Positions 8,164 to 30,597 of a stretch of DNA of 47,704 nucleotides are shown piece by piece. Position numbers and translations under genes: made by a program. Origin of the DNA: Bacteroidaceae bacterium (GTDB taxonomy: Bacteria; Bacteroidota; Bacteroidia; Bacteroidales; Bacteroidaceae); assembly GCA_017541025.1 (NCBI GenBank), contig JAFXZY010000084.1, forward strand, positions 1-47,704. The letters run 5' to 3'. The notes beneath the pieces are model-generated. The model was not told the origin of the DNA. It saw only the letters and a program-made list of their open reading frames with translations, and searched no databases. Position 1 is the first letter of the stretch, and each line of letters begins with the position of its first letter.

Positions 8164-10050
8164 GTGGAAAAAGAGCCCAAAGAACTACTGGCAAACATAC
8201 AATTCCCTTCTGATTTAAGGCAATTGCCGATATCAGAACTTCCGAGTGTCTGCGAAGAACTCAGGCAAACTATTATACAAGAGTTGGCTGACAATCCTGG
8301 TCATTTTGCCAGCAGTTTAGGCGTGGTGGAACTGACCGTTGCCTTGCATTATGTGTTCAACACCCCTTACGACCGTATAGTTTGGGATGTAGGACATCAG
8401 GCCGCCGGCCATAAGATTCTGACTGGGCGCAAAGATAAATTCAATACCTACAGAAAACTGCATGGCCTACGCCCCTTCCCCTCTCCACAGGAGAGTGAGT
8501 ACGACACCTTTGCCTGCGGACATGCTTCCAACAGCATCTCTGCAGCATTAGGAATGGCTGTTGCCGCTCAGGAAAAAGGTGAGACAGACAGACAGGTGGT
8601 AGCCGTGATAGGTGACGGCAGCATGAGCGGCGGACTGGCATACGAAGGTCTTAACAACGTATCAAGTACCCAAAACAATCTGCTGATTATTCTGAACGAC
8701 AATAATATGAGCATTGACCATAGTGTAGGAGGCATGAAACATTATTTGCACCAGATGCACACCAGCAAGCTCTACAATTACCTAAGGTTTAGAACATCCC
8801 AGCACTTGTTCAAGTGGGGAATACTTAACGAAAACCGCAGACAGAAGATTATCCGATTCAACAACTCCCTGAAATCGCTGCTGACCAACCAGCAGAATAT
8901 CTTCGACGGCATGAACATCCGCTATTTCGGACCCAGCGACGGACACAATGTGATAGAACTGGTAGCAACACTGCGTCAGATCAAGGACATGAAAGGCCCT
9001 AAGTTGCTACATATTCATACCATAAAAGGCAAAGGATTCCAGGCAGCCGAGGAAGACCCCGTAGTTTTCCATGCACCCGGGAGATACGACCCCGAAACAG
9101 GAGAACGGATAAAATCAGAGGCCAAAAACCTGCCTCCTAAATATCAGGATGTCTTTGGAAATACGTTACTCGAGTTAGCCAAGGAAAACCAGAAGATTGT
9201 GGGTGTCACACCTGCTATGGCAACAGGCTGCAGCATGACCATCATGATGAAAGAGATACCAGAACGCACCTTCGACGTAGGTATTGCTGAAGGACACGCC
9301 GTAACCTTCTCCGGCGGAATGGCCAAGGAAGGACTGCTTCCTTTCTGTAATATCTACTCCAGCTTTTCACAACGTGCTTTTGATAATATCATTCACGATG
9401 TGGCACTCAACAGGCAGAATGTAGTTTTCTGCTTCGACCGCGCAGGACTGGTAGGGCAAGACGGTCCGACACATCACGGAGCATTCGATTTAGCAGCCCT
9501 GCGCCCTATCCCCAACCTGATTATCTCTTCACCGATGAACGAGCATGAGTTGCGCCATCTTATGTACACAGCTCAGCTGCCAGACAAGGGGCCGTTTGTC
9601 ATTCGCTACCCACGCGGAAGAGGGGTTATAGTAGATTGGAGATGCCCAATGCAAGAGATTCCGATAGGAAAAGGCAGATGCCTAAAGGAAGGAACGGATG
9701 TAGCCGTACTGAGCATTGGCCCCATTGGCAACATCGTAACACAGGCCATCAGCGAACTGGCATCACAAGAGATTAGCATAGCACATTACGACATGAGGTT
9801 CCTCAAGCCCATAGACGAGGACATCCTCGCATACGTAGGAAAGAATTTCAGTCGTATCATTACCATAGAGGACGGAGTAAAGAACGGAGGGTTGGGATCT
9901 GCCGTTCTGGAATATATGTCAGACCACAATCTGCATCCCGACATCATCCGCCTGGGACTCCCCGACCATTTCGTGGAGCATGGAACACCAGAAGAACTCT
10001 ATCAGATAGTCGGATTAGACGTTGAATCAATAAAAAAGGCCATTTTATGA
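8164..10050 (+). CDS. dxs: 1-deoxy-D-xylulose-5-phosphate synthase
   Basis: The product is 628 residues, normal length. It condenses pyruvate and glyceraldehyde-3-phosphate with thiamine diphosphate, the first step of the MEP isoprenoid pathway, and also feeds thiamine and pyridoxal synthesis. Visible landmarks are [15 protein letters not shown] (residues about 75-90), the ThDP/Mg site [16 protein letters not shown], the catalytic-glutamate motif VGIAEGHAV, and the transketolase-type pyrimidine-binding stretch [16 protein letters not shown]. The start is a GTG: nearby ATG codons are out of frame, and family N-termini begin a few residues before PSDLR as here. The stop overlaps the trkA start (ATGA), so the two are translationally coupled. 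Confidence 0.97.
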
Positions 10051-11441
10051 AGATAGTAATATGTGGCGCAGGCGCCGTAGGAACGCATTTGGCGGAGTTG
10101 CTCTCCCGTGAAGACCAAGACATCATCCTCATCGACGAGAACCCCGAGAAGACAGCTCGCCTTACCCAAGCAGGCGAGTATGACCTTATGACACTGAACG
10201 TCTCCCCAACCAGCATCAGCGGACTAAAAGAAGCAGGAGTGCCCAAAGCTGACCTTGTTATTGCTGTCACACCCGAGGAGACACGCAACATCACTTGCTG
10301 TATGCTGGCTCATGCACTGGGAGCCGCCAAGACTGTGGCGCGTGTTGACAATGCCGAATATACCCGATCTCATTACAAAGACCTTTTCCGGAAAATGGGC
10401 ATCGACTCCATCATCTACCCCGAAGCTCTTGCAGCGAAGGAAATTCTGGATGGCCTGAAACGTTCATGGGTCAGACAGTACTGGGAAGTGCATGAAGGCG
10501 CATTGGTCATGCTGGGAATAAAACTCCGCGAAACAGCACATGTTATCAACATAAAACTCAAGGATCTCTGTAATCACGATACACCATATCATGTGGTAGC
10601 AATCAAGCGCGGTGATGATACCATAATCCCAGGCGGTAACGATATGCTCTTAGTCGGTGATATAGCCTATTTCATGACCACGAAGAAACACATTCAGTAC
10701 ATCCGCGAGATTGTCGGGAAGGAAGATTATGCCGACGTAAAAGATGTGATGATTATGGGAGGCGGAAGAACCACCGTACATGTGGCAGAAGGAATGCCCG
10801 ACTTTTACTCCCTGAAAATCATCGAGCAGAACGAGGAACGCTGCATGCAGCTAAACGAGATACTGGATGACAGCGATATACGTATCATACAAGGCGACGG
10901 ACGGGACACCAGTCTTCTGCTTGACGAAGGACTGAAAGAGGTACAGGCTTTTGCCGCACTTACACCTGAAACAGAAACCAACATATTGGCTTGTCTGGCA
11001 GCAAAACGCATGGGAGTGCGGAAAACCGTTGCGCTGGTAGAAAACATGGACTATGTTTCTATGGCCGAGAAATTGGATATCGGAACCATTATCAATAAGA
11101 AAATGATTGCTGCAAGCCATATCTATCAGATGATGCTGGATACTGATGTGTCAAACGTAAAATGCCTTACCATTGCAAATGCAGATGTTGCAGAGTTTAA
11201 TGCCAACGAAGATAGTCTTATTACAAAAACGGAAGTCAAGGATCTGCGTTTACCTTCAGGTGTTACGTTAGGAGGTTTGGTTCGTGACGGAGTTGGTAAG
11301 CCTATCTACGGAAACACACAAATCATGCCAGGCGATACCGTTGTGCTTTTCTGTAAGAGCGGTTTAATAAAGAAGATAGACCGTTACTTCTCTAAGCCAA
11401 CATCTGCCATCAGCCGCATCAAGTCAGCTTTCAACAACTGA
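10047..11441 (+). CDS. trkA: Trk potassium uptake regulatory subunit TrkA
   Basis: The product is 464 residues with the duplicated RCK layout of TrkA. The first Rossmann domain begins [19 protein letters not shown] and carries the acidic residue at [10 protein letters not shown]; the second begins [17 protein letters not shown] near residue 235, with a degenerate glycine loop. Each is followed by a TrkA_C-type domain. It binds NAD(H)/ATP at the inner face of the membrane and gates the TrkH channel. In many Bacteroidetes trkH follows directly; here it does not. The next gene is convergent and its 3' end overlaps the last 58 bp of trkA. Confidence 0.95.
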
Positions 11442-12391
11442 TACTGAGGACTATTCTTGAACCCGATGGATCTTTTTAACATAACATCCACAGGCATCTG
11501 GCTATGTCTGTAGCTTGACAGTTCGTTCTGTTTCTGCGTTTCGTGAACAGCCAAGTCGTTAATCTCCCTTTCACGTTCTCTACGCAAGATATTACAAATA
11601 GGTGTAAGCAGCGTCATCACCACATTTTCGAAAAGTGTGTGGCCGTGCATATATAAATAGGTGTTCTCGGGTTTGATGCCCATACGCTGCAATTCAGCCT
11701 TTACCTGCGGATAAGTCTTGTGACCCTCGGGAAAAGTCCGCTGCAACCAGCCGATACACTTGTTAACCCGTCGGCGTACCTTATCCAATGTGGGTTCTAC
11801 ATTGCGGGGGTTGATATCGTGGATCGAAACAATATCACAGAAATTACTCATAGTAAACTCCTTATAATGGCCATACCGGTATGCCCAGATGTTCCATACA
11901 AAAAGAGGCCATATAATAAGGCTGTAGTCAGTAAAGAAAACCTCAAAATCTATTAAGAGATGGTCGTTCAGCGTGCTCATCACACATGTCGAGTGAAGAC
12001 TGGGTGCATAGCACTGGTAATTCTCTATGGCATAGACATAGGTGTGCATTACATAAGGATTCTCACAGAGGTATTTGCTGATTTCCGTTCGCCCTTGCAA
12101 CAACCAGTCGTAGTCGGCATCAACACAAGCAATCATGTATTGCCCGAGCCCCTTCCCCAGTTGGTTCATCAAGACGGTTCTCTTTCCCTTCCCTAAGGTT
12201 GTCCTACTGGGAAGCATCACCTCAAAGAAAAATTTATCCGTCTCGAAATCCTGCAAGACAGAACGCCAGAAAAATATGTCATCATAGCTTTCTACGTATG
12301 CGACAATTCTCTTTCGGGCATCCTTGGGTCTCAGTTTATTGGCAGATGCTATATACTGAGAATTTATATTGTCTTGCAAGCGTTTTCCCAT
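11384..12391 (-). CDS. DUF4435 (TOPRIM-like) protein, AriB-like; last gene of a candidate defence operon
   Basis: The product is 335 residues from MGKRLQDNINSQYIASANK; this start lies 11 bp after the ATPase stop, while longer starts would run deep into that gene. Features typical of DUF4435 proteins are visible: a TOPRIM-type glutamate (E34 in AYVESYDDIFFW), an acidic DxD pair (D91 and D93 in CVDADYDWLL) and the family motif YAIENYQ (residues 120-126). DUF4435 is the effector family of PARIS (AriB), a metal-dependent nuclease released by its ATPase partner; by analogy this would be the toxic effector. The gene overlaps the 3' end of trkA by 58 bp on the opposite strand. Confidence 0.8.
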   Translation of the reverse strand: MGKRLQDNINSQYIASANKLRPKDARKRIVAYVESYDDIFFWRSVLQDFETDKFFFEVMLPSRTTLGKGKRTVLMNQLGKGLGQYMIACVDADYDWLLQGRTEISKYLCENPYVMHTYVYAIENYQCYAPSLHSTCVMSTLNDHLLIDFEVFFTDYSLIIWPLFVWNIWAYRYGHYKEFTMSNFCDIVSIHDINPRNVEPTLDKVRRRVNKCIGWLQRTFPEGHKTYPQVKAELQRMGIKPENTYLYMHGHTLFENVVMTLLTPICNILRREREREINDLAVHETQKQNELSSYRHSQMPVDVMLKRSIGFKNSPQYQLLKADLMRLMADVGLEK

Positions 12392-12402
12392 ATCTCTGTG
12401 CT

Positions 12403-13218
12403 CTAAGATACAATGTCTTCGACATCCGTCACACAATCTGCCCATCCGTTCATAATAACGGCAGGACTGTGCGTAGTAAGAATAATCTGAGTATTGGGAT
12501 TCAAGTCGCGTATCAGAGAAATCAACTGCTGCTGCCATTCCACATGCAGACTTATCTCCGGCTCATCCATAAATAAAGTATAATGACGTTTATTCTGAAC
12601 AAGCACAGAAAGCAAGATAATCAGCATCTGTTTTTCGCCGCTCGAAAGCTTATAAGGTGATAAGGTTTCACCAAAAGATGTAAAGTACAGCTCGTTCTTC
12701 TCCCGTTGGATGGTTTTGCCCGTATCGCGAAAAAGTCTGTCCACTAAATCCTGAAAATGCGTTTTTACCTGGGCCAGCTCCTGTGCCTTCTCCTGTGCAT
12801 TTGGATCCTGCGAAGTAAAAAGCTCTACCATACGATTACTCAAGCTAACCTGGAAATCCAGATAACGGCGTTGCAACACGTACAGATGGAAATCCAATTC
12901 TGTCTGCATCTGGGTATCTGTAACCTTATTCAGGATATCACCGCTCAGTATAGGACGGTCAAAGGAACGTATGACATCGAAATCCACACAATGTGCCCCT
13001 TCCACATCATAAGTAAGCTTAACACCGTCGGCTTGCCTGTCCAATTTGTCTATATTCAACAAATGCATGATAACCCTGTTAAGGATGGTGCTCTTGCCTA
13101 CACCGTTTACACCACTCAGGATGTTAACGGTAGGACTCAGTTCCCACTTAACATGTTTTTTCCCACTCCAGAGCGATTCTATCTCAATGCTCTTGATATA
13201 ATTAGCCGGCTGTTTCAT
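12403..13218 (-). CDS. Compact ABC-type AAA ATPase (OLD/AriA-like); middle gene of a candidate defence operon
   Basis: The product is 271 residues and has all nucleotide-binding motifs: Walker A GVNGVGKST (36-44), signature LSSGEKQ (191-197), Walker B TLFMDEPE with the catalytic glutamate (near 217-221), a D-loop-like SLHVEWQQQL and the switch histidine in LTTHSP (near 248). It lacks the long coiled-coil or dimerisation insert of SMC and OLD proteins, so it is smaller than typical AriA. The gene begins 3 bp after the TIR-like stop and ends 11 bp before the DUF4435 start. The likely role is a sensor/scaffold ATPase holding or triggering the neighbouring effector (inference from PARIS and Septu-like pairs). 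Confidence 0.85.
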   Translation of the reverse strand: MKQPANYIKSIEIESLWSGKKHVKWELSPTVNILSGVNGVGKSTILNRVIMHLLNIDKLDRQADGVKLTYDVEGAHCVDFDVIRSFDRPILSGDILNKVTDTQMQTELDFHLYVLQRRYLDFQVSLSNRMVELFTSQDPNAQEKAQELAQVKTHFQDLVDRLFRDTGKTIQREKNELYFTSFGETLSPYKLSSGEKQMLIILLSVLVQNKRHYTLFMDEPEISLHVEWQQQLISLIRDLNPNTQIILTTHSPAVIMNGWADCVTDVEDIVS

Positions 13219-13221
13219 ACG

Positions 13222-13749
13222 TCAGAAAATTGTGGTTGAGTTCCATGAATACAATTCTTTTCTTGCCGAGAAGAACCCCAGTGCTCTTTCCAGTTTGTCC
13301 TTTGTCAGAGGGATATGCGCCATGTTAGCGCTATCGCGACCTATGTATTTCCTTATCTTGTTGGGCAGATTATTCCATTCCTTTTTTATGGTATTATCAT
13401 CAACTCTGTCCAGACCTACGTAAGCCACTATCACAGGCAGCCGGAAACGATTGACAGCACGGCTTATCTGCCAATTCAGCATTGGACTTTCCACATCCAT
13501 TTTAGAGCTGGAAAGAACCAACAGATTGTCTGCAGATTCCATCAAATGAAGAAAACGGTTCTTCAGCGTGCTGTCAACCAAATCTTCATGTTCCGACAGG
13601 AACTCTATTTCTTCCATGTTCAGAAAATGGAATCTGTCAGGATTCTGCCTTTCCCATTCACGTATCTGACGGAAAGAGGAAAGATTGCTGTTCACGTGAT
13701 CAGCCACCCCAACAGTGTCAAAAGCTACATACGTCTTATTACTATTCAT
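13222..13749 (-). CDS. TIR-like (DUF1863/ThsB-type) domain protein; first gene of a candidate defence operon
   Basis: The product is 175 residues, a single domain. The first strand TYVAFDTVGVADHVN, the later strand NLLVLSSS and the helix-strand segment SPMLNWQISRAVNRFRLPVI (89-108) followed by VAYVG resemble TIR-like proteins such as ThsB of Thoeris, in which a W-x-x-E-I segment holds the NAD-cleaving glutamate. Here the matching position appears to be Gln94, so it may bind a nucleotide without cleaving it, or the true glutamate may lie elsewhere. It is transcribed first from a well-formed promoter at 13779-13809, then the ATPase and DUF4435 genes follow with almost no gaps. Family assignment rests on motif pattern only. 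Confidence 0.6.
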   Translation of the reverse strand: MNSNKTYVAFDTVGVADHVNSNLSSFRQIREWERQNPDRFHFLNMEEIEFLSEHEDLVDSTLKNRFLHLMESADNLLVLSSSKMDVESPMLNWQISRAVNRFRLPVIVAYVGLDRVDDNTIKKEWNNLPNKIRKYIGRDSANMAHIPLTKDKLERALGFFSARKELYSWNSTTIF

Positions 13750-13778
13750 AAAACATGTAAATAATGCGTTTTCTATAG

Positions 13779-13809
13779 CAAAGATACGGATTCTGTTTCA
13801 AATATGCAA
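13779..13809 (-). promoter_or_regulatory. Promoter of the TIR-like/AAA/DUF4435 operon
   Basis: On the minus strand TTG (13807-13809), exactly 20 nt, then TATCTTTG (13779-13786), a full match to the Bacteroidetes housekeeping promoter. It lies about 30 bp upstream of the TIR-like start and is the only promoter-like element seen for the three genes. Confidence 0.75.
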
Positions 13810-14859: not shown

Positions 14860-14890
14860 TTGGCAGTTATGTATGAAAAGTGTACTTTTG
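14860..14890 (+). promoter_or_regulatory. Promoter of the MNT antitoxin gene
   Basis: TTG (14860-14862), exactly 20 nt, then TACTTTTG (14883-14890). The ATG of the MNT gene is at 14895, only 4 nt after the element, so the transcript is probably leaderless or nearly so. Confidence 0.7.
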
Positions 14891-14894
14891 CAGT

Positions 14895-15209
14895 ATGAAA
14901 CGTACAGAAGTTGTAGAAAGAATCAGAAAAGCTGCTCACAAGATGAAGCCCTTGGTTCAGACCATTCTATATGGCTCTGAAGCACGTGGTGATGCTCGTC
15001 CGGATTCCGATATAGACCTTCTTGTATTGGTTGATAAAGATAATCTTTCCTATTCTGACAAGGATCGAATCATAGCTCCATTCTATGATATAGAACTTGA
15101 CACAGGCGTTAATATCAGCACCCTTATTATGCCTCGTAAAGAATGGGAGAATCGACCGTTCCTTACTCCTTTCCAAAACAACATAAACAAAGAAGGAATC
15201 ACACTATGA
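14895..15209 (+). CDS. MNT-type minimal nucleotidyltransferase (antitoxin of a HEPN-MNT pair)
   Basis: The product is 104 residues from MKRTEVVERIRK. The nucleotidyltransferase signature ILYGSEARGDARPDSDIDLL contains G-S-x-A-R-G and the D-x-D metal pair. In HEPN-MNT toxin-antitoxin modules such a protein modifies (AMPylates) and silences the HEPN RNase. The stop overlaps an ATG (ATGA) that opens the partner gene, but that partner ends after 12 codons, leaving this gene an orphan. The start 15 bp downstream of the longest frame is preferred because the promoter -7 element ends at 14890. Confidence 0.85.
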   Translation: MKRTEVVERIRKAAHKMKPLVQTILYGSEARGDARPDSDIDLLVLVDKDNLSYSDKDRIIAPFYDIELDTGVNISTLIMPRKEWENRPFLTPFQNNINKEGITL

Positions 15210-22848: not shown

Positions 22849-25800
22849 ATGTTTAACGTGAGCGCGCGAAAATTCATATCAGTTCTACTTGTTTTGGTAA
22901 GCATAAATATGCTTGCCCAAGTTCCTGCTGACACTATACAGAAACGCAAACCCAGATTTAGCGTACGTAAAACGGGAGCAGAAAATCAAGATAATCTGAA
23001 GACCAAAACAGCCGACCTTAAGGAGCCTGATAACCTGAAGACGGACGTTATCTATGACGAAAAAGATAACACATACACCGTAGGAACAACATTGGATAAA
23101 TTATCTTCAGGCCAAGGTTCTACCTCCAGCAATACGTCTGGCAACAAGACCACCTCTCCCTCCATGACTCTCGGTCAGGCAACAAGCTACCTGAATGCAC
23201 CGTTACTGATGTCTCCCGAGGAATACCAGAAGTGGTCATTGAAAAATAGCATGCAGGCATATTGGCGCAAGAAGAATGCAGATGCCTTCGAATCCGAAGG
23301 CAAAAACAAATTCGATTTCACCGATATGCATTTCGACTTGGGGCCTGCAGAAAAGATTTTTGGCCCTGGTGGTGTACAGATTAAGACACAGGGAAGTGCC
23401 GAACTGAAACTGGGTATTAACGCCAAGAAGGTTAACAACCCTGCTTTGGCAGCTTCACGTCGTAAAACCATTGGATTCGATTTCGACCAGAAGATTAACC
23501 TTACCCTCAATGGTAAGGTGGGAGACAAGATCAATATGAACCTGAACTACAACACTGAAGCAACATTTGATTATGACTCCCAAATGATGAAGCTGAAGTA
23601 CGACGGTAAGGAAGATGAAATCATTAAACTCATTGAGGCGGGTAACGTATCCTTCCCCAGTAACATGAATCTGGTCTCCGGTATAAGTAGTTTGTTTGGT
23701 TTACGAACAGATGTCCAATTTGGAAAATTAAAACTTCAGACCGTTGTCAGTCAGAAGAAAAGTGCCAGTGCAAGCGCTACAAGTAAGGGCGGCAAGCAGA
23801 CAACGCCTTTTGAGTTCAGCGCCACAAATTACGAGGAGAACCGCCATTTCTTCCTTTCTCACTTCTTCCGTGAGCGTTACGATGACAACATGAAAACCTT
23901 GCCCACAATAAGTAGCGGCATCACCATCAAGCGAATAGAAATCTGGGTAACCAATAAAAGTGCTACCACCGAGAACAACAGAAACATCATTGCTCTCGCC
24001 GACCTTGGCGAGCCCTCATACATCAGCAATCACTTGTGGAATGCTACCGGCAACGTCCCAGCCAACCGTACCAATACCGAGTATGAGACGATTGTCAACA
24101 ATTACCCAGAAGCCAGAGATATTTCCCAGACAACAGCTATTCTGGACGGTATAGGTGGAGGTGATGAATTCGAAGGCAGCCGCGATTACGAGAAATTGCA
24201 GTCAGCACGCAAACTAAATACCAACGAATATACCCTGAACGCTGCACTGGGTTATATCAACTTGAGTAACAATCTGCAAACTGACGATGTGTTGGCGGTA
24301 GCATACGAATATACCTACAATGGAGCTACTTTTCAGGTAGGCGAATTTGCATCCGACATTACCGACAACTCACAAGCCCTTATTGTAAAGTTGCTGAAAA
24401 GCACCACGGGAAATCCCAAGTTCCCAACATGGAAACTGATGATGAAAAATGTCTATAACCTGGGAGGTTCAACCACTCAGGGAGTCACATCCGTCCAGAA
24501 AGAGAATTTCCGTCTGGATGTAAAATACCTCAGTGACTCAACGGGCGTATACTTATCTTATTTACCTAACGAACGCCTAAAGAGCACACCCATTATTAAG
24601 GCCTTGAATGCCGACCGTCTAGACGACAAGAACAATGCACACAGCAATGGTTTCTTTGATTATGTAGAAGGGTACACCATCCTGAAGGGCGGACGTGTAG
24701 TATTCCCCGTTGCAGAGCCTTTTGGTTCACACCTTCGAAACTGGATTGCAGATGACGAGTTGGCGGATAAATTCTGTTTCCAAGAACTTTACGACAGCAC
24801 CAAGACTGTTGCCAAGCAGATAGCAGAACACGACAAGTTCCTAATCACAGGTAAATTCAAAGGCAACATAGCAGGAGAGATTGACTTGGGTGTCACCAAT
24901 GTCGCACCAGGTTCTGTCAGAGTAACTGCAGGAGGTGTAACTCTTACAGAGAACACCGATTATACGGTTGATTACAACATGGGCCGCGTAACCATTATTA
25001 ATCAAAGCATCATAGATGCTAAAACTGACATCCAAGCCAGCGTTGAGAGCAACGACACTTACGGCATGCAACGTAAAACCATGTTAGGTTTCAATGCAGA
25101 CTATGAGTTCAACAAGAACCTAACCGTGGGCGGTACGCTGATGTTTCTGAACGAACAACCTCTTACCACAAAAGTCAATATGGGTAGCGAGCCCCTCAAA
25201 AACACACTTTGGGGTGCTCATATCAGTTGGAAGAAGGAAAGCCAGTGGCTGACTAACATGATAGACAAGCTACCTCTAATACAATGTACACAGCCAAGTC
25301 TTATCACCTTCAACGGCGAGTTTGCACAACTTGTTGCAGGACAGAATCACAGCGTACAGGGCAGGGCGTCTTATCTTGATGATTTCGAGCAAAGCAGTAT
25401 TAAAAACAGCCTGACTCAGCCCACTTACTGGACTCTTTGCAGTACACCCAGTATGTTCCCCGAGAGCAAGCTCTCAAACAACCTGGCCTACGGATATAAC
25501 CGTGCATTGTTGGCTTGGTACTATGTTGACCCCATCTTCACCCGCCGAAGCAGTACCCTTACACCAAGTCATATCAAAAGCGACCTTGACCAGCTGTCCA
25601 ACCATTATGTACGCGAAGTGCATGAGCGCGAACTTTATCCATTAAAAGCCCAGAACAGTTACAATAGTGCTAGTAGCCTTAATGTATTGAACCTGGCATA
25701 CTATCCTAACGAACGAGGAGCTTATAACCTTACCACAGAGATCGACCAGGACGGTCATCTGTTAAATCCTCAATCAAAATGGGGAGGCATGATGCGTAAG

Positions 25801-28800
25801 ATTGACAATACCGACTTTGAGGCTCAGAACATTCAGTATATTGAGTTCTGGATGATGGATCCCTTTATTTATAATACCACAGGAAACAATCGCGGTGGTG
25901 ATTTCTACATCAATCTGGGAGAAGTTAGCGAGGATATTCTTAAAGATGGAAAGAAATTCTTTGAGAGCGGAATGCCCGTTGATGGTAGCAGCCAATACTA
26001 TACAGAAGAGCTATGGGGACATATACCAAACACCATCAGTGTCACCTACGCCTTTAATAATGAAAGTGGCTCACGCATTCGTCAGGATGTGGGTCTGAAT
26101 GGTTTGAACGACGAAGAAGAACGGCAGTACGAAACCTATCAGCAATACCTGCAGCAGATTCAGCACATTGTACGCCCCGAGGTTTATGACAGCATCTTTG
26201 CCGATCCCGCCAATGACAACTACCATTATTACCGAGGAACCGACTTTGACCAACTCAAGACCTCTATTCTTGACCGTTATAAGCGTATCAATATGCCACA
26301 GGGTAATAGTGCGGACAGCGATACTAGCCCTGAAAGTTATGAAACATCTTGGAAGAGCACTCCTGATATTGAGGATATCAATCAGGACTTTACCCTCAAT
26401 GAGTATGAGAAATACTACCAGTACCACATTAGTATCCGTCCAGAGGATATGGTAGTAGGTCGCAACCATATTGCTGATATGCGTACAGCCAGCGTTAAAC
26501 TACGAAATGGTAATACCGAAGATTGTAAGTGGTATCTTTTCCGCGTGCCATTGTCGGCATATGAATCAAAAGAAGGAAACATCAACGACTTCACCAGTAT
26601 CCGTTTTATGCGAATGTTCCTTACTAACTTCCAGCAGGATGTAATAATTCGTCTGGCCACCCTTGATATGGTTCAGGGAAATTGGCGCCCTTACGAGCGA
26701 CCACTCTACACGGGCCAGGCTCCCAGCAGCAACGGTACATTGGAAGTCAGCAACGTAAGTATTGAGGAGAATAGTGACAAAAAGCCTGTCAATTATGTAC
26801 TGCCTCCAGGCATTAGTCGAATTACAGACCCTTCACAGTCACAATTGGTCGAAAATAACGAGCAGGCAATGTGTTTGATAACCCGCAATTTGAGTCCCGG
26901 CGATGCACGTGCAGTATACAAGAACTGTACATACAATATGCGACAGTATAAACATCTGCAACTCTACCTGCACGCCAACGCATTAGCCGAAAATATCACA
27001 GAAACAACCGATGGTGAGTGCAGCGTGTTCCTCCGTCTGGGTTCCGACTATAAGAGCAACTACTACGAATACGAGGTTCCTATGCAACTAACCCCCGAAG
27101 GCACTTATGACACCTATAGTGCTGCTGGCTGTCGTGCTGTCTGGCCCGAGGAGAATATGATGGATATTAATCTGGAACTCTTCACTACCCTGAAGAAAAA
27201 ACGCAATGCACAGGTAAGTGCCAACATAACCAGTATCAACCAGCTTTTCTATGAATACGACGAGAACCATCCCAGCAACCGTATCTCTATCATGGGTAAC
27301 CCCACATTGGCCGAGGTAAAAACTATCATGATTGGCATTCGCAACAATGGTCGTACCGTTAAGAGCATTGAGGTTTGGGCCAACGAACTCCGTCTGCAGG
27401 AATTTACAAACAGCGGTGGATGGGCTGCACAAGGTAACCTGAACGTACAGTTGAGTGATATTGGTTCTGTAAACGTAACCGCCAAATACATAAAGGCGGG
27501 ATTCGGTGGTATCGAACAAACCGTAGCACAACGTACCGACGAGGACAATCTCGACTACGCCATTACCACCAACGTAGAGCTGGGTCGGTTGCTGCCCGAA
27601 AAAGCCAAGGTTAACTTCCCCTTGTACTATTCTTACAGAAAGGAGACAATAAAGCCCAAGTACAACCCCTTCGATACGGATATGTTGCTCTCTGACGCCC
27701 TGGATGCTATGGCCACCCAGCAAGAAAGAGATTCGTTAAGTAGCCTTACCAATCACGTGGAAGTCAGCAAGAACATCTCGTTCAGCGGCGTCAAGATAAA
27801 CATTGCCACTCGTAAGCATCCCATGCCCTACGACCCAGCCAACTTCACCTTCAATTACAGCCACTCACAGCAAATAACCGAGGGGCAAACCATTGTCTAT
27901 GAACACGAGTATAACTGGAGGGGAGGCTTGAACTACGCTTGGAGTCCCAACTGGAAAGCCTGGGAACCATTTAAGAATCTGAAGGGCAAGAGCAAGTGGC
28001 TGGATATTATTAAAGCACAGAATCTGGCCTATGCCCCACAGAGTATTACATTTAATACGGATATCACGCGTAACTACTACGAGTTGCAAGAGCGTGATTT
28101 AGAGAGTCTTGGCACCCCCAACTCCATTCCTGCCACCTGGAGCCAGAGTTTTTTCTGGAACCGCAACTTCCAACTCCGCTGGGATATTTTCAAGGCGTTG
28201 CATTTCACCTTCCAAAGTGGCACCAGGGCCGAAATTGAAGAGCCCTACATGCAGGTTAACAAAGACCTCTATCCCGATCAGTATTCTGCTTGGAAAGACT
28301 CCATCAAGCATAGCCTCCTGCACTTTGGCCGCCCGCTGGATTACAACCAAAACGTACAGATAAGTTATAAGGTGCCCTTTGACAAGATTCCTGTTACAGA
28401 CTGGCTTTCTGCCGATGTTTCTTATAACAGTAACTATTCTTGGCGTCGAGGCAGTACGCGTGAAGACGGAACCAGCCTAGGAAACACCATTAATACACAA
28501 CGAAACATCAATGCAAACGGTAGGATAGACCTGGAAAAGCTATACAACCACAGCAAATTCCTGCAGGAGGTCAACAAACGCTTCTCTGCCTCAAGCGCTA
28601 AAACAGAAGCCAGCAAGAAGAAGCAGGAAAAGCAACGCCAGAAGGATGCCAAAAAGAAAGAACAGGCGAAGCAGGACAATGCTCGCGTACAAGCTGAGGA
28701 AGAGGCTATGAAGACTGGTGAGCCCGTAGATTCTATCCTTGCACGTCAAAAGGCTATTCAAGCAGGTCGTCAAACCAACAAGAATGGTATCAGCCAGAAA

Positions 28801-30597
28801 AAGGAACCAGAAAAGAAAGGTTTTGCTCAGGAAATAACACTGTTACCCGACAGCAATATCACCATTAACCACGGTCAGAAGAGCAAACGCCTTCGTATCA
28901 CAGCCCTCGATACAGCCGGCCACGCCTTTAAGATTTATTATAAGAAGAAGGACGAGAACACGCTGGTACTTCGTAAAACTCCCGTTGACACCACCCAGAT
29001 TCGTCTGAACGTTGTGGCATTACCCGAACTCTCTGAGAAGAAGTGGTTCGACTGGGCTCAGGCCGGCGCACGCTTCCTCATGTCGTTGCGCAACATCAGC
29101 ATATCATACCGCAACACATACAACCTGGCACTGCCCGGCTTCCGTCCCGAGATTGGCGATTTGTTGGGTCAGGGAAAGGATAACGGCTTCCTGTCGCCGG
29201 GTATCGACTTCGGTCTGGGCTTTATTAACGACAGCTACATCGAAAGGGCACAGGAGCGTGGATGGCTGTTGGGCAGCGAGGACGGGGTATCCTCACCAGC
29301 CAGTTCTGCCACAACCGAGGATGTACAGGTTAAGATGGCAGTGGAGCCGTTTACGGATTTCAAGATAGACTTGAACATGAGCCGTACTCATAACCGCAAC
29401 CGCAGCATCCAATACATGTATCGCGATGCCGACGGTCTCTTCCCCGCTACTCACAGCGGCTCGTTCAATATTACCACCATCTCTCTTAAGACTGCTTTTG
29501 CCAGCAGTGGTTCGGCTGCCAACGGATACCATAGCACTCCGTTCGAGAATTTTGTCAAGAAGCTAGATGCCTACCAACAGCGTGTCACAGAGCGTTATGC
29601 AGGCGTTAAGTATCCTGCCAGATCGGGTAAGACGGGCTATTATAATCCAGAAACCGACCTTCCAGTTAACAAGTTCGGTCCCGACGTGATGATACCCGCC
29701 TTCCTGGATGCATACACAGGCTCCAGTTCTTTGGATATCTTCCCCACCATAACCCGCATGCTCCCCAACTGGACTTTTACTTATAAGGGGTTGAGCAATC
29801 TGCCATGGGTTCGTGACCACTTGAAGAGCGTTACCCTCACACACGCCTATAAGAGCATCTATGCTGTTGGTTCTTATAACTCGTACAGCTCTTGGCTGGA
29901 GTGTATGGGAGCAGGTAACGGAATGGGCTTTGTACAAAACACCACCACAGGTGAGTATCAGCCATCATCCATGTACGACATCAGCACCGTCAGCATTAAC
30001 GAAAGTTTTGCTCCGCTGATGGGTTTGAACATGACGTTCAACAACAACATGACCCTGAAGGTGGAATACCGCACCACCCGCGTGCTGAACCTCAGCCTCA
30101 CCAGTGCCCAGCTGAACGAAACCGGCTCTCAGGACTTTGTCATCGGTTGGGGGTACAAAATTAACGACTTCAAGATTTCTGAACTCTTCCGTTCCAAGAG
30201 ATCAGCTGCACGTCAGGAAACCAGAAATAAACTCAGAAACAAGAACGGCAACAATGCCAACAGGAACAATTCTGCTAACCAGAATAACAATAATAACAAT
30301 TCCAATAACAGCAGGAGCAGCAAGAGCAACTTTGCTCACAGCTTGTCAATGCGCTTCGATTTTAGCATCCGTAACCAGGATGCCATCAAACGAGACATTC
30401 AGACGGGCCTTTGCGAGGCTACCAGCGGTCAGAAGGCGTTCAAAACCAGTGCACAGTTGGATTACTCAATAAGCCGTTTGACCACCCTCAGTGTTTATTA
30501 CGATCGCCAACGCTCACAGCCATTGCTCTCCAGCACTAGCTACCCCACCGTTACCCAAGACTTTGGTATAACTATGAAGTTCTCACTGACAAGATAA
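22849..30597 (+). CDS. sprA: T9SS outer-membrane translocon protein SprA (Sov)
   Basis: The product is 2582 residues, one of the largest proteins in Bacteroidetes and the right size for SprA, the 36-strand barrel through which type IX secretion cargo crosses the outer membrane. A hydrophobic N-terminal export signal (FISVLLVLVSINMLAQ) is followed by repeated SprA-type modules, including NGKVGDKINMNLNYNTEATF and the stretch LLAWYYVDPIFTRRSS near residue 900. Two low-complexity segments stand out: a K/E/Q-rich charged stretch at about 1915-1990 and an asparagine-rich stretch at about 2457-2495. Three other proteins in this window carry T9SS-type C-terminal tails and are candidate clients. A strong bidirectional terminator follows 9 bp after the stop. 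Confidence 0.95.
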   Translation: MFNVSARKFISVLLVLVSINMLAQVPADTIQKRKPRFSVRKTGAENQDNLKTKTADLKEPDNLKTDVIYDEKDNTYTVGTTLDKLSSGQGSTSSNTSGNKTTSPSMTLGQATSYLNAPLLMSPEEYQKWSLKNSMQAYWRKKNADAFESEGKNKFDFTDMHFDLGPAEKIFGPGGVQIKTQGSAELKLGINAKKVNNPALAASRRKTIGFDFDQKINLTLNGKVGDKINMNLNYNTEATFDYDSQMMKLKYDGKEDEIIKLIEAGNVSFPSNMNLVSGISSLFGLRTDVQFGKLKLQTVVSQKKSASASATSKGGKQTTPFEFSATNYEENRHFFLSHFFRERYDDNMKTLPTISSGITIKRIEIWVTNKSATTENNRNIIALADLGEPSYISNHLWNATGNVPANRTNTEYETIVNNYPEARDISQTTAILDGIGGGDEFEGSRDYEKLQSARKLNTNEYTLNAALGYINLSNNLQTDDVLAVAYEYTYNGATFQVGEFASDITDNSQALIVKLLKSTTGNPKFPTWKLMMKNVYNLGGSTTQGVTSVQKENFRLDVKYLSDSTGVYLSYLPNERLKSTPIIKALNADRLDDKNNAHSNGFFDYVEGYTILKGGRVVFPVAEPFGSHLRNWIADDELADKFCFQELYDSTKTVAKQIAEHDKFLITGKFKGNIAGEIDLGVTNVAPGSVRVTAGGVTLTENTDYTVDYNMGRVTIINQSIIDAKTDIQASVESNDTYGMQRKTMLGFNADYEFNKNLTVGGTLMFLNEQPLTTKVNMGSEPLKNTLWGAHISWKKESQWLTNMIDKLPLIQCTQPSLITFNGEFAQLVAGQNHSVQGRASYLDDFEQSSIKNSLTQPTYWTLCSTPSMFPESKLSNNLAYGYNRALLAWYYVDPIFTRRSSTLTPSHIKSDLDQLSNHYVREVHERELYPLKAQNSYNSASSLNVLNLAYYPNERGAYNLTTEIDQDGHLLNPQSKWGGMMRKIDNTDFEAQNIQYIEFWMMDPFIYNTTGNNRGGDFYINLGEVSEDILKDGKKFFESGMPVDGSSQYYTEELWGHIPNTISVTYAFNNESGSRIRQDVGLNGLNDEEERQYETYQQYLQQIQHIVRPEVYDSIFADPANDNYHYYRGTDFDQLKTSILDRYKRINMPQGNSADSDTSPESYETSWKSTPDIEDINQDFTLNEYEKYYQYHISIRPEDMVVGRNHIADMRTASVKLRNGNTEDCKWYLFRVPLSAYESKEGNINDFTSIRFMRMFLTNFQQDVIIRLATLDMVQGNWRPYERPLYTGQAPSSNGTLEVSNVSIEENSDKKPVNYVLPPGISRITDPSQSQLVENNEQAMCLITRNLSPGDARAVYKNCTYNMRQYKHLQLYLHANALAENITETTDGECSVFLRLGSDYKSNYYEYEVPMQLTPEGTYDTYSAAGCRAVWPEENMMDINLELFTTLKKKRNAQVSANITSINQLFYEYDENHPSNRISIMGNPTLAEVKTIMIGIRNNGRTVKSIEVWANELRLQEFTNSGGWAAQGNLNVQLSDIGSVNVTAKYIKAGFGGIEQTVAQRTDEDNLDYAITTNVELGRLLPEKAKVNFPLYYSYRKETIKPKYNPFDTDMLLSDALDAMATQQERDSLSSLTNHVEVSKNISFSGVKINIATRKHPMPYDPANFTFNYSHSQQITEGQTIVYEHEYNWRGGLNYAWSPNWKAWEPFKNLKGKSKWLDIIKAQNLAYAPQSITFNTDITRNYYELQERDLESLGTPNSIPATWSQSFFWNRNFQLRWDIFKALHFTFQSGTRAEIEEPYMQVNKDLYPDQYSAWKDSIKHSLLHFGRPLDYNQNVQISYKVPFDKIPVTDWLSADVSYNSNYSWRRGSTREDGTSLGNTINTQRNINANGRIDLEKLYNHSKFLQEVNKRFSASSAKTEASKKKQEKQRQKDAKKKEQAKQDNARVQAEEEAMKTGEPVDSILARQKAIQAGRQTNKNGISQKKEPEKKGFAQEITLLPDSNITINHGQKSKRLRITALDTAGHAFKIYYKKKDENTLVLRKTPVDTTQIRLNVVALPELSEKKWFDWAQAGARFLMSLRNISISYRNTYNLALPGFRPEIGDLLGQGKDNGFLSPGIDFGLGFINDSYIERAQERGWLLGSEDGVSSPASSATTEDVQVKMAVEPFTDFKIDLNMSRTHNRNRSIQYMYRDADGLFPATHSGSFNITTISLKTAFASSGSAANGYHSTPFENFVKKLDAYQQRVTERYAGVKYPARSGKTGYYNPETDLPVNKFGPDVMIPAFLDAYTGSSSLDIFPTITRMLPNWTFTYKGLSNLPWVRDHLKSVTLTHAYKSIYAVGSYNSYSSWLECMGAGNGMGFVQNTTTGEYQPSSMYDISTVSINESFAPLMGLNMTFNNNMTLKVEYRTTRVLNLSLTSAQLNETGSQDFVIGWGYKINDFKISELFRSKRSAARQETRNKLRNKNGNNANRNNSANQNNNNNNSNNSRSSKSNFAHSLSMRFDFSIRNQDAIKRDIQTGLCEATSGQKAFKTSAQLDYSISRLTTLSVYYDRQRSQPLLSSTSYPTVTQDFGITMKFSLTR

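Follow-up and report, generated by a model that had tools for sequence, protein, structure and literature searches.

A PARIS-type ATPase-nuclease gene pair kept in nearly every sampled genome of one bacterial family, with a candidate TIR pseudoenzyme gene before it in part of one genus

A patchy, horizontally spread distribution is typical of defence systems, and it is not a formal criterion for PARIS, a class 4 member of the OLD family in which the genes for an ABC ATPase (AriA) and a DUF4435 Toprim nuclease (AriB) stand side by side. A hexamer of AriA keeps AriB sequestered until a phage trigger sets it free, and the pair protects against phage. In Escherichia coli AriA holds and gates AriB, an RNase that cleaves tRNA (PMC12409363; PMC11455837) and whose catalytic site resembles that of the rRNA-maturation nuclease RNase M5 (PMC12409363). 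The published detection rule asks for an ATPase of at least 32 bits against AAA_15, or at least 27 bits against AAA_21, beside a DUF4435 protein of at least 27 bits, and the same study reports ariAB in 5.2% of genomes, with no mention of Bacteroid- or Prevotella in its main text (Rousset et al. 2022, PMC9122126). ThsB, the TIR protein (DUF1863) of Thoeris, requires its catalytic glutamate, E85, and E85Q is a dead mutant (PMC10022894), while Cran1, a class 5 ATPase-nuclease of the OLD family, is conserved by vertical descent in the Sulfolobales, where it is essential and seems to have no antiviral role (PMC12796447). The locus considered here lies in a stretch of 47,704 nucleotides from a Bacteroidaceae bacterium (contig JAFXZY010000084.1; the whole stretch is called the window), where one promoter is followed on the minus strand by genes for a TIR-like protein, an AriA-type ABC ATPase and an AriB-type DUF4435 protein (Table 1). 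An original prediction had described these elements as a sporadic operon joining PARIS and Thoeris. The promoter, the three genes and the three identities are real, but the ariA-ariB pair proves to be core to the family, judged by its presence, and to descend vertically within the genus, with the TIR-like gene as an accessory in part of that genus.

The relationship of the pair to PARIS, as had been proposed, is borne out by the published rule. The window ATPase scores 68.5 and 69.1 bits against AAA_15 and AAA_21 and the DUF4435 protein 162.8 bits, and PADLOC matches the three proteins to its ThsB, AriA and AriB models. Comparison of profiles with proteins of a Klebsiella plasmid gives E-values of 1.4e-32 for the ATP-binding protein and 3.2e-13 for the DUF4435 protein. 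Residues E34, D91 and D93 of AriB are invariant in all 128 homologues from the genus and align with the E and DxD of the Klebsiella DUF4435 protein, and E34 is presumably the equivalent of E26 in E. coli AriB. The small size of the ATPase had been put forward as distinctive, which it is not, since the best PADLOC match of the window AriA is a 253-position AriA model (the short form, PDLC04164) and AriA of five relatives from other genera of the family aligns over about 270-282 residues. What is unusual is the TIR gene added behind the same promoter. Three genomes of the genus (G424, G534 and G425; loci L127, L129 and L130) have an AriA of only 223-225 amino acids, 41-43% identical and without a stretch around residues 109-148 that is present in other copies, beside an ordinary AriB.

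How widely is the pair kept? Most of the genomes counted are incomplete metagenome-assembled genomes (MAGs). In the genus, where ariB and the TIR-like gene were both counted by single-sequence search, ariB is present in 128 of 139 genomes and in all 18 of the most complete, next to 131 of 139 for dxs, a housekeeping control identified through Pfam. Seven of the 11 genomes without ariB are also without dxs, shared gaps that are expected because the genomes are incomplete, though dxs and ariB are often neighbours. A profile search of the family, which judging by its named members is the Bacteroidaceae, including Bacteroides and Phocaeicola, finds ariB in 285 of 301 genomes, in 161 of the 168 most complete and in 28 of 30 genera. 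All but seven of the 285 matches score below 1e-110; five genomes of genus g200 have matches of only 1e-51 to 1e-61, which may not represent orthologues. At the level of the order the profile finds ariB in 16 of 198 genomes. Three of these belong to the family; the other 13 come from different families, where the matches are weaker (1e-18 to 1e-83) and are accompanied by an AriA relative in the stretch in 11 cases. In the class the profile finds it in six of 247 genomes, all in the family, and in the phylum a single-sequence search finds it in six of 395, five of them in the family. The two genes also stay together: in 125 of the 128 genus loci ariA is the gene immediately upstream, on the strand of ariB (the remaining three stop at a contig edge), and it accompanies ariB in all 31 further best-scoring stretches from the family search and kin, which come from only three genera. 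For instance, the pair of Bacteroides finegoldii, with AriA 55% and AriB 48% identical, has meaB, a DMT transporter gene and a mechanosensitive channel gene as neighbours, and a relative in Phocaeicola massiliensis is 51% identical. Eight of the 139 genus genomes (G504, G482, G457, G528, G517, G473, G478 and G480) have an additional DUF4435 protein that is divergent (23-30% identity) and probably belongs to an ordinary, patchy PARIS.

As to viral or mobile carriage of the pair, viral contigs, scanned twice, and phages yielded no relative, and the four plasmid records matched comprise two from Klebsiella, which are distant (22%), and one each from Bacteroides and Phocaeicola. These last two are the plasmid-labelled NZ_OY725943.1 (L422, B. 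finegoldii) and OY726067.1 (L423, P. massiliensis); the former, which is the annotated one, bears chromosomal-looking, housekeeping genes, meaB among them, and is possibly a piece of chromosome with the wrong label.

Vertical descent was examined within the genus, where pairwise distances of AriB follow those of DXS with a Mantel r of 0.79 (n=110), a value reached in 0 of 999 permutations. The corresponding figures are 0.76 for AriA (Spearman 0.52, n=108) and 0.92 for the TIR-like protein (Spearman 0.89, n=46), and over 71 common genomes r is 0.85 for DXS-TrkA, 0.77 for DXS-AriB and 0.84 for TrkA-AriB. Values of dN/dS against eight close relatives lie between 0 and 0.105 where they are defined, being undefined in one, four and two of the eight for the TIR-like protein, AriA and AriB, respectively, with dS often above 1 or saturated. 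The pair occupies few genomic addresses, standing with trkA/dxs in 55 of the 128 loci, at a second site in 27, at a third in 17 and elsewhere in 29. On a dxs tree of 110 of the 128 ariB genomes (46 with the TIR-like gene adjacent, 16 with it elsewhere and 48 without it) these addresses change at least 17 times, as against 51 with shuffled labels. Sporadic occurrence, which the original prediction had expected of the whole trio while counting universal conservation against itself, holds for the patchy TIR-like gene, and near-universal presence is what was found for the pair.

The TIR-like protein has a ThsB-type fold, as supported by its PADLOC match and by alignments with the solved ThsB-type proteins 9uv0, 3hyn and 8v6t, in which residue 94 falls on a glutamate, so that this position is presumably that of the ThsB catalytic residue. 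Among 63 aligned homologues, including five solitary copies and one from a sister genus, residue 94 is glutamine in 62, methionine in one and glutamate in none; in the named set it is glutamine in 44 and methionine in one of 45. Distant relatives, L087 (33% identity) and L088, retain the glutamate. Elsewhere in this helix (LNWQIS) conservation is among the highest in the protein, so that the pocket may have been retained although catalysis has probably been lost. Because the glutamate is replaced in all 63 homologues and E85Q kills ThsB, the idea that the TIR-like protein makes a signal is unlikely. It also differs from ThsB in its company, its neighbours being ariA-ariB or unrelated genes. 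Searches of the window's own genome (G000) with ThsA_Macro and STALD gave no match, but 14 control genomes were equally silent, so the result is uninformative. In L088 (569-2007, minus strand), from another genus of the family, a ThsB_TIR gene with an intact glutamate is followed by ThsA_Macro, an ordinary Thoeris locus.

The TIR-like gene is found in 77 of the 139 genus genomes and in 19 of 301 in the family, the latter a single-sequence count that is not strictly comparable with the profile count of ariB. It stands directly before ariA in 57 of the 77, is ambiguous through a contig break in one (G505, scored as adjacent on the dxs tree) and lies on another contig in 19. All 77 have ariB, and the 11 genomes without ariB are all without it. 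Among named genomes there are 79 loci, which largely repeat the genus genomes and are not independent of them: ariA is next on the same strand in 57 (55 with ariB also in the stretch) and not in 22. They are labelled Bacteroidaceae, Prevotellaceae, Bacteroidales and once Bacteroides sp., and many come from the ruminant gut. The adjacency of the TIR-like gene and ariA changes state four times on the dxs tree (35 if shuffled), and has thus been gained or lost merely a handful of times. Away from the pair the gene has a second stable address. In 17 of the 21 TIR-only loci examined in named genomes (several of L261-L297) it is preceded by a GH92 gene, followed by a gene for an M18 aminopeptidase, or flanked by both, as in six of them. 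The neighbours of solitary copies encode an M18 aminopeptidase, a GH92 protein or a PSP1 protein, and no partner effector is claimed for these copies. In the sister genus g196 the TIR locus is without ariAB within the fetched stretch, although the same genome has ariB. An open reading frame of 972 amino acids in L024 with the TIR part at its end was rejected as a fusion, its upstream part looking by eye like chance translation; the other aligned solitary copies have about 175 amino acids.

The placement of the promoter bears on how the three genes are expressed. A TAnnTTTG box lies within 120 bp upstream of the TIR-like gene in 52 of 55 TIR-adjacent loci (mean of 4.6 after shuffling the letters), upstream of ariA in none of 56 TIR-linked loci (shuffled 1.5), where the stretch is often TIR coding sequence and its absence partly expected, and, among 68 loci that lack the TIR-like gene, upstream of ariA in 43 (shuffled 3.5). 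A longer pattern with TTG at -33 is found in 21, none and 28 loci of the same three sets. The simplest interpretation would be a single transcript in which the TIR-like gene lies between the promoter and ariA. No TIR-PARIS operon was met in the parts covered of the literature mentioning AriB and ThsB, a literature search returned no paper combining ThsB and DUF4435, and one made mostly at the level of titles returned no title on core PARIS in Bacteroidaceae.

What might such an arrangement do? The reading that on balance appears probable is that the pair is a resident nuclease module of PARIS type, to which some members of one genus add a pseudoenzyme TIR regulator. By analogy with E. coli, AriA would hold AriB, as a two-metal Toprim RNase, inactive until a trigger, either infection or a comparable stress, is sensed; AriA would then free AriB, which would cut tRNA or another structured RNA and so stop translation. 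The TIR-like protein, presumably made from the same transcript as ariAB in part of the genus, would be a regulatory pseudoenzyme that lacks the NADase glutamate and makes no signal; it may tune AriA on binding either a trigger protein or some nucleotide-like ligand. A number of observations weigh against this account. RNA cleavage, AriA-AriB binding and phage protection by this pair are predictions by analogy, and near-universal presence is unlike that of typical defence systems and also fits a housekeeping role. There are also 16 of the 301 family genomes without an AriB match, some in genera g2 and g3 being 99% complete. In comparison with the solved AriA of 464 amino acids (8ux9) the window protein has 271, and its profile covers residues 5-49 and 360-439 only; about 310 residues between these blocks correspond to about 130 in the window AriA, which is thus shorter than E. 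coli AriA by about 180 residues in the part from Walker A to the signature, and sensing may therefore differ. No solved AriB chain was matched in searches of PDB sequences with either a single sequence or an alignment, and the identity of AriB rests on Pfam, PADLOC and the profile comparison. The rank correlation between AriB and DXS is lower (Spearman 0.54), and the controls are not fully independent, dxs and trkA adjoining ariB in 55 of 128 loci. With only four changes of adjacency the 57 linked loci represent few independent events, and ariAB is present where the TIR-like gene is elsewhere (19 genomes) or was not found (51), from which it follows that the pair does not need it.

The alternative that AriA-AriB has been domesticated as a housekeeping module for RNA processing or translation control, with the TIR-like protein as a lineage-specific regulator, is possible, though we hold it with distinctly less confidence. 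The frequency of ariB, close to that of dxs in the genus and high in the family, AriB distances that track DXS nearly as well as those of TrkA do, ordinary neighbours (trkA and dxs, or meaB and the mechanosensitive channel gene in B. finegoldii), the absence of relatives from the viral contigs and phages searched, and the resemblance of the AriB site to RNase M5 all speak for it. So does the precedent of Cran1, likewise an ABC ATPase with a Toprim nuclease that an entire lineage has passed on vertically, as defence genes usually are not, although Cran1 is a single fused archaeal protein, essential and linked to the cell cycle, and here there are two bacterial genes. Against it stand the lack of a fixed link to any housekeeping gene, given the repeated changes of address, a divergence of AriB about 1.7 times that of DXS, and the 16 family genomes without a match, in some of which (g2 and g3) the pair looks dispensable. 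Taken further, the whole family may have turned a PARIS-type pair into core physiology outside phage defence, such as a controlled cutting of RNA or arrest of translation, and one genus, most of whose known genomes are ruminant-gut MAGs, may have added a dead TIR as a ligand-sensing regulator; this is speculative and rather unlikely. A sporadic defence operon, in which the TIR-like protein makes a cyclic ADP-ribose-like signal as in Thoeris and a PARIS effector responds, would be consistent with the ThsB fold, the three PADLOC matches and the shared promoter placement, but replacement of the glutamate in all 63 aligned homologues while L087 and L088 keep it, the absence of a ThsA model match among the 20 window neighbours scanned and the core nature of the pair leave the joining of the two logics very improbable. 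It is, with some doubt, unlikely that the TIR-like gene has a function of its own and that nothing but a common promoter ties it to ariAB in some genomes of the genus, an idea that would fit either a resident or a domesticated pair. Its location on another contig in 19 genomes, its stable second address and the g196 locus point that way, whereas its position on the same strand before ariA in all 57 linked loci and the distribution of the promoter box, the latter partly expected from coding sequence, point the other; the presence of ariB in every TIR-bearing genome argues weakly in the same direction because ariB is nearly universal. The module resembles known PARIS in its adjacent ATPase and DUF4435 genes with their catalytic residues kept, and departs from it in being near-universal in one family, in its shorter AriA and in the extra TIR-like gene found in part of one genus.

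Table 1. Coordinates of the promoter, the three genes and the gene overlap in the window.
Feature	Position	Strand	Remark
Promoter: TTG (-33) at 13807-13809, 20 nt, TATCTTTG (-7) at 13779-13786	13779-13809	-	sequence
TIR-like protein, ThsB fold, 175 aa, Gln94 at the presumed catalytic Glu place	13222-13749	-	
AriA-type short ABC ATPase, 271 aa	12403-13218	-	
AriB-type DUF4435 Toprim protein, 335 aa, E34/D91/D93	11384-12391	-	
Tail-to-tail overlap of ariB and trkA, 58 bp	11384-11441		trkA at 10047-11441 (+)

Within the window the gap between ariA and ariB is 11 bp. Of the 51 loci that have trkA as the next gene, 30, among them the window, show a tail-to-tail overlap of 58 or 61 bp between it and ariB. 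Nineteen of the 20 window neighbours scanned match no PADLOC model, so the locus is no defence island. Near the trio a nucleotidyltransferase of 109 amino acids (14880-15209, plus strand; PADLOC candidate PDC-S09, 5.6e-22, and Pfam NTP_transf_2) is a possible toxin-antitoxin or defence candidate. Further away an open reading frame of 2582 amino acids (22849-30597, plus strand) adjoins ruvA.

The pair counts as PARIS by the published rule and the PADLOC models, yet it is kept in nearly every sampled genome of the family. Either a PARIS-like layer of immunity is inherited by these gut Bacteroidota universally, or they have domesticated a nuclease of defence type, and both readings can be tested in tractable Bacteroides. 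The TIR-like protein, with its glutamine in place of glutamate, offers itself as a candidate TIR pseudoenzyme, one whose role would be to regulate a nuclease rather than to produce a nucleotide signal. Whichever of the two readings of the pair holds, it would, if true, alter the interpretation of PARIS counts from gut genomes.

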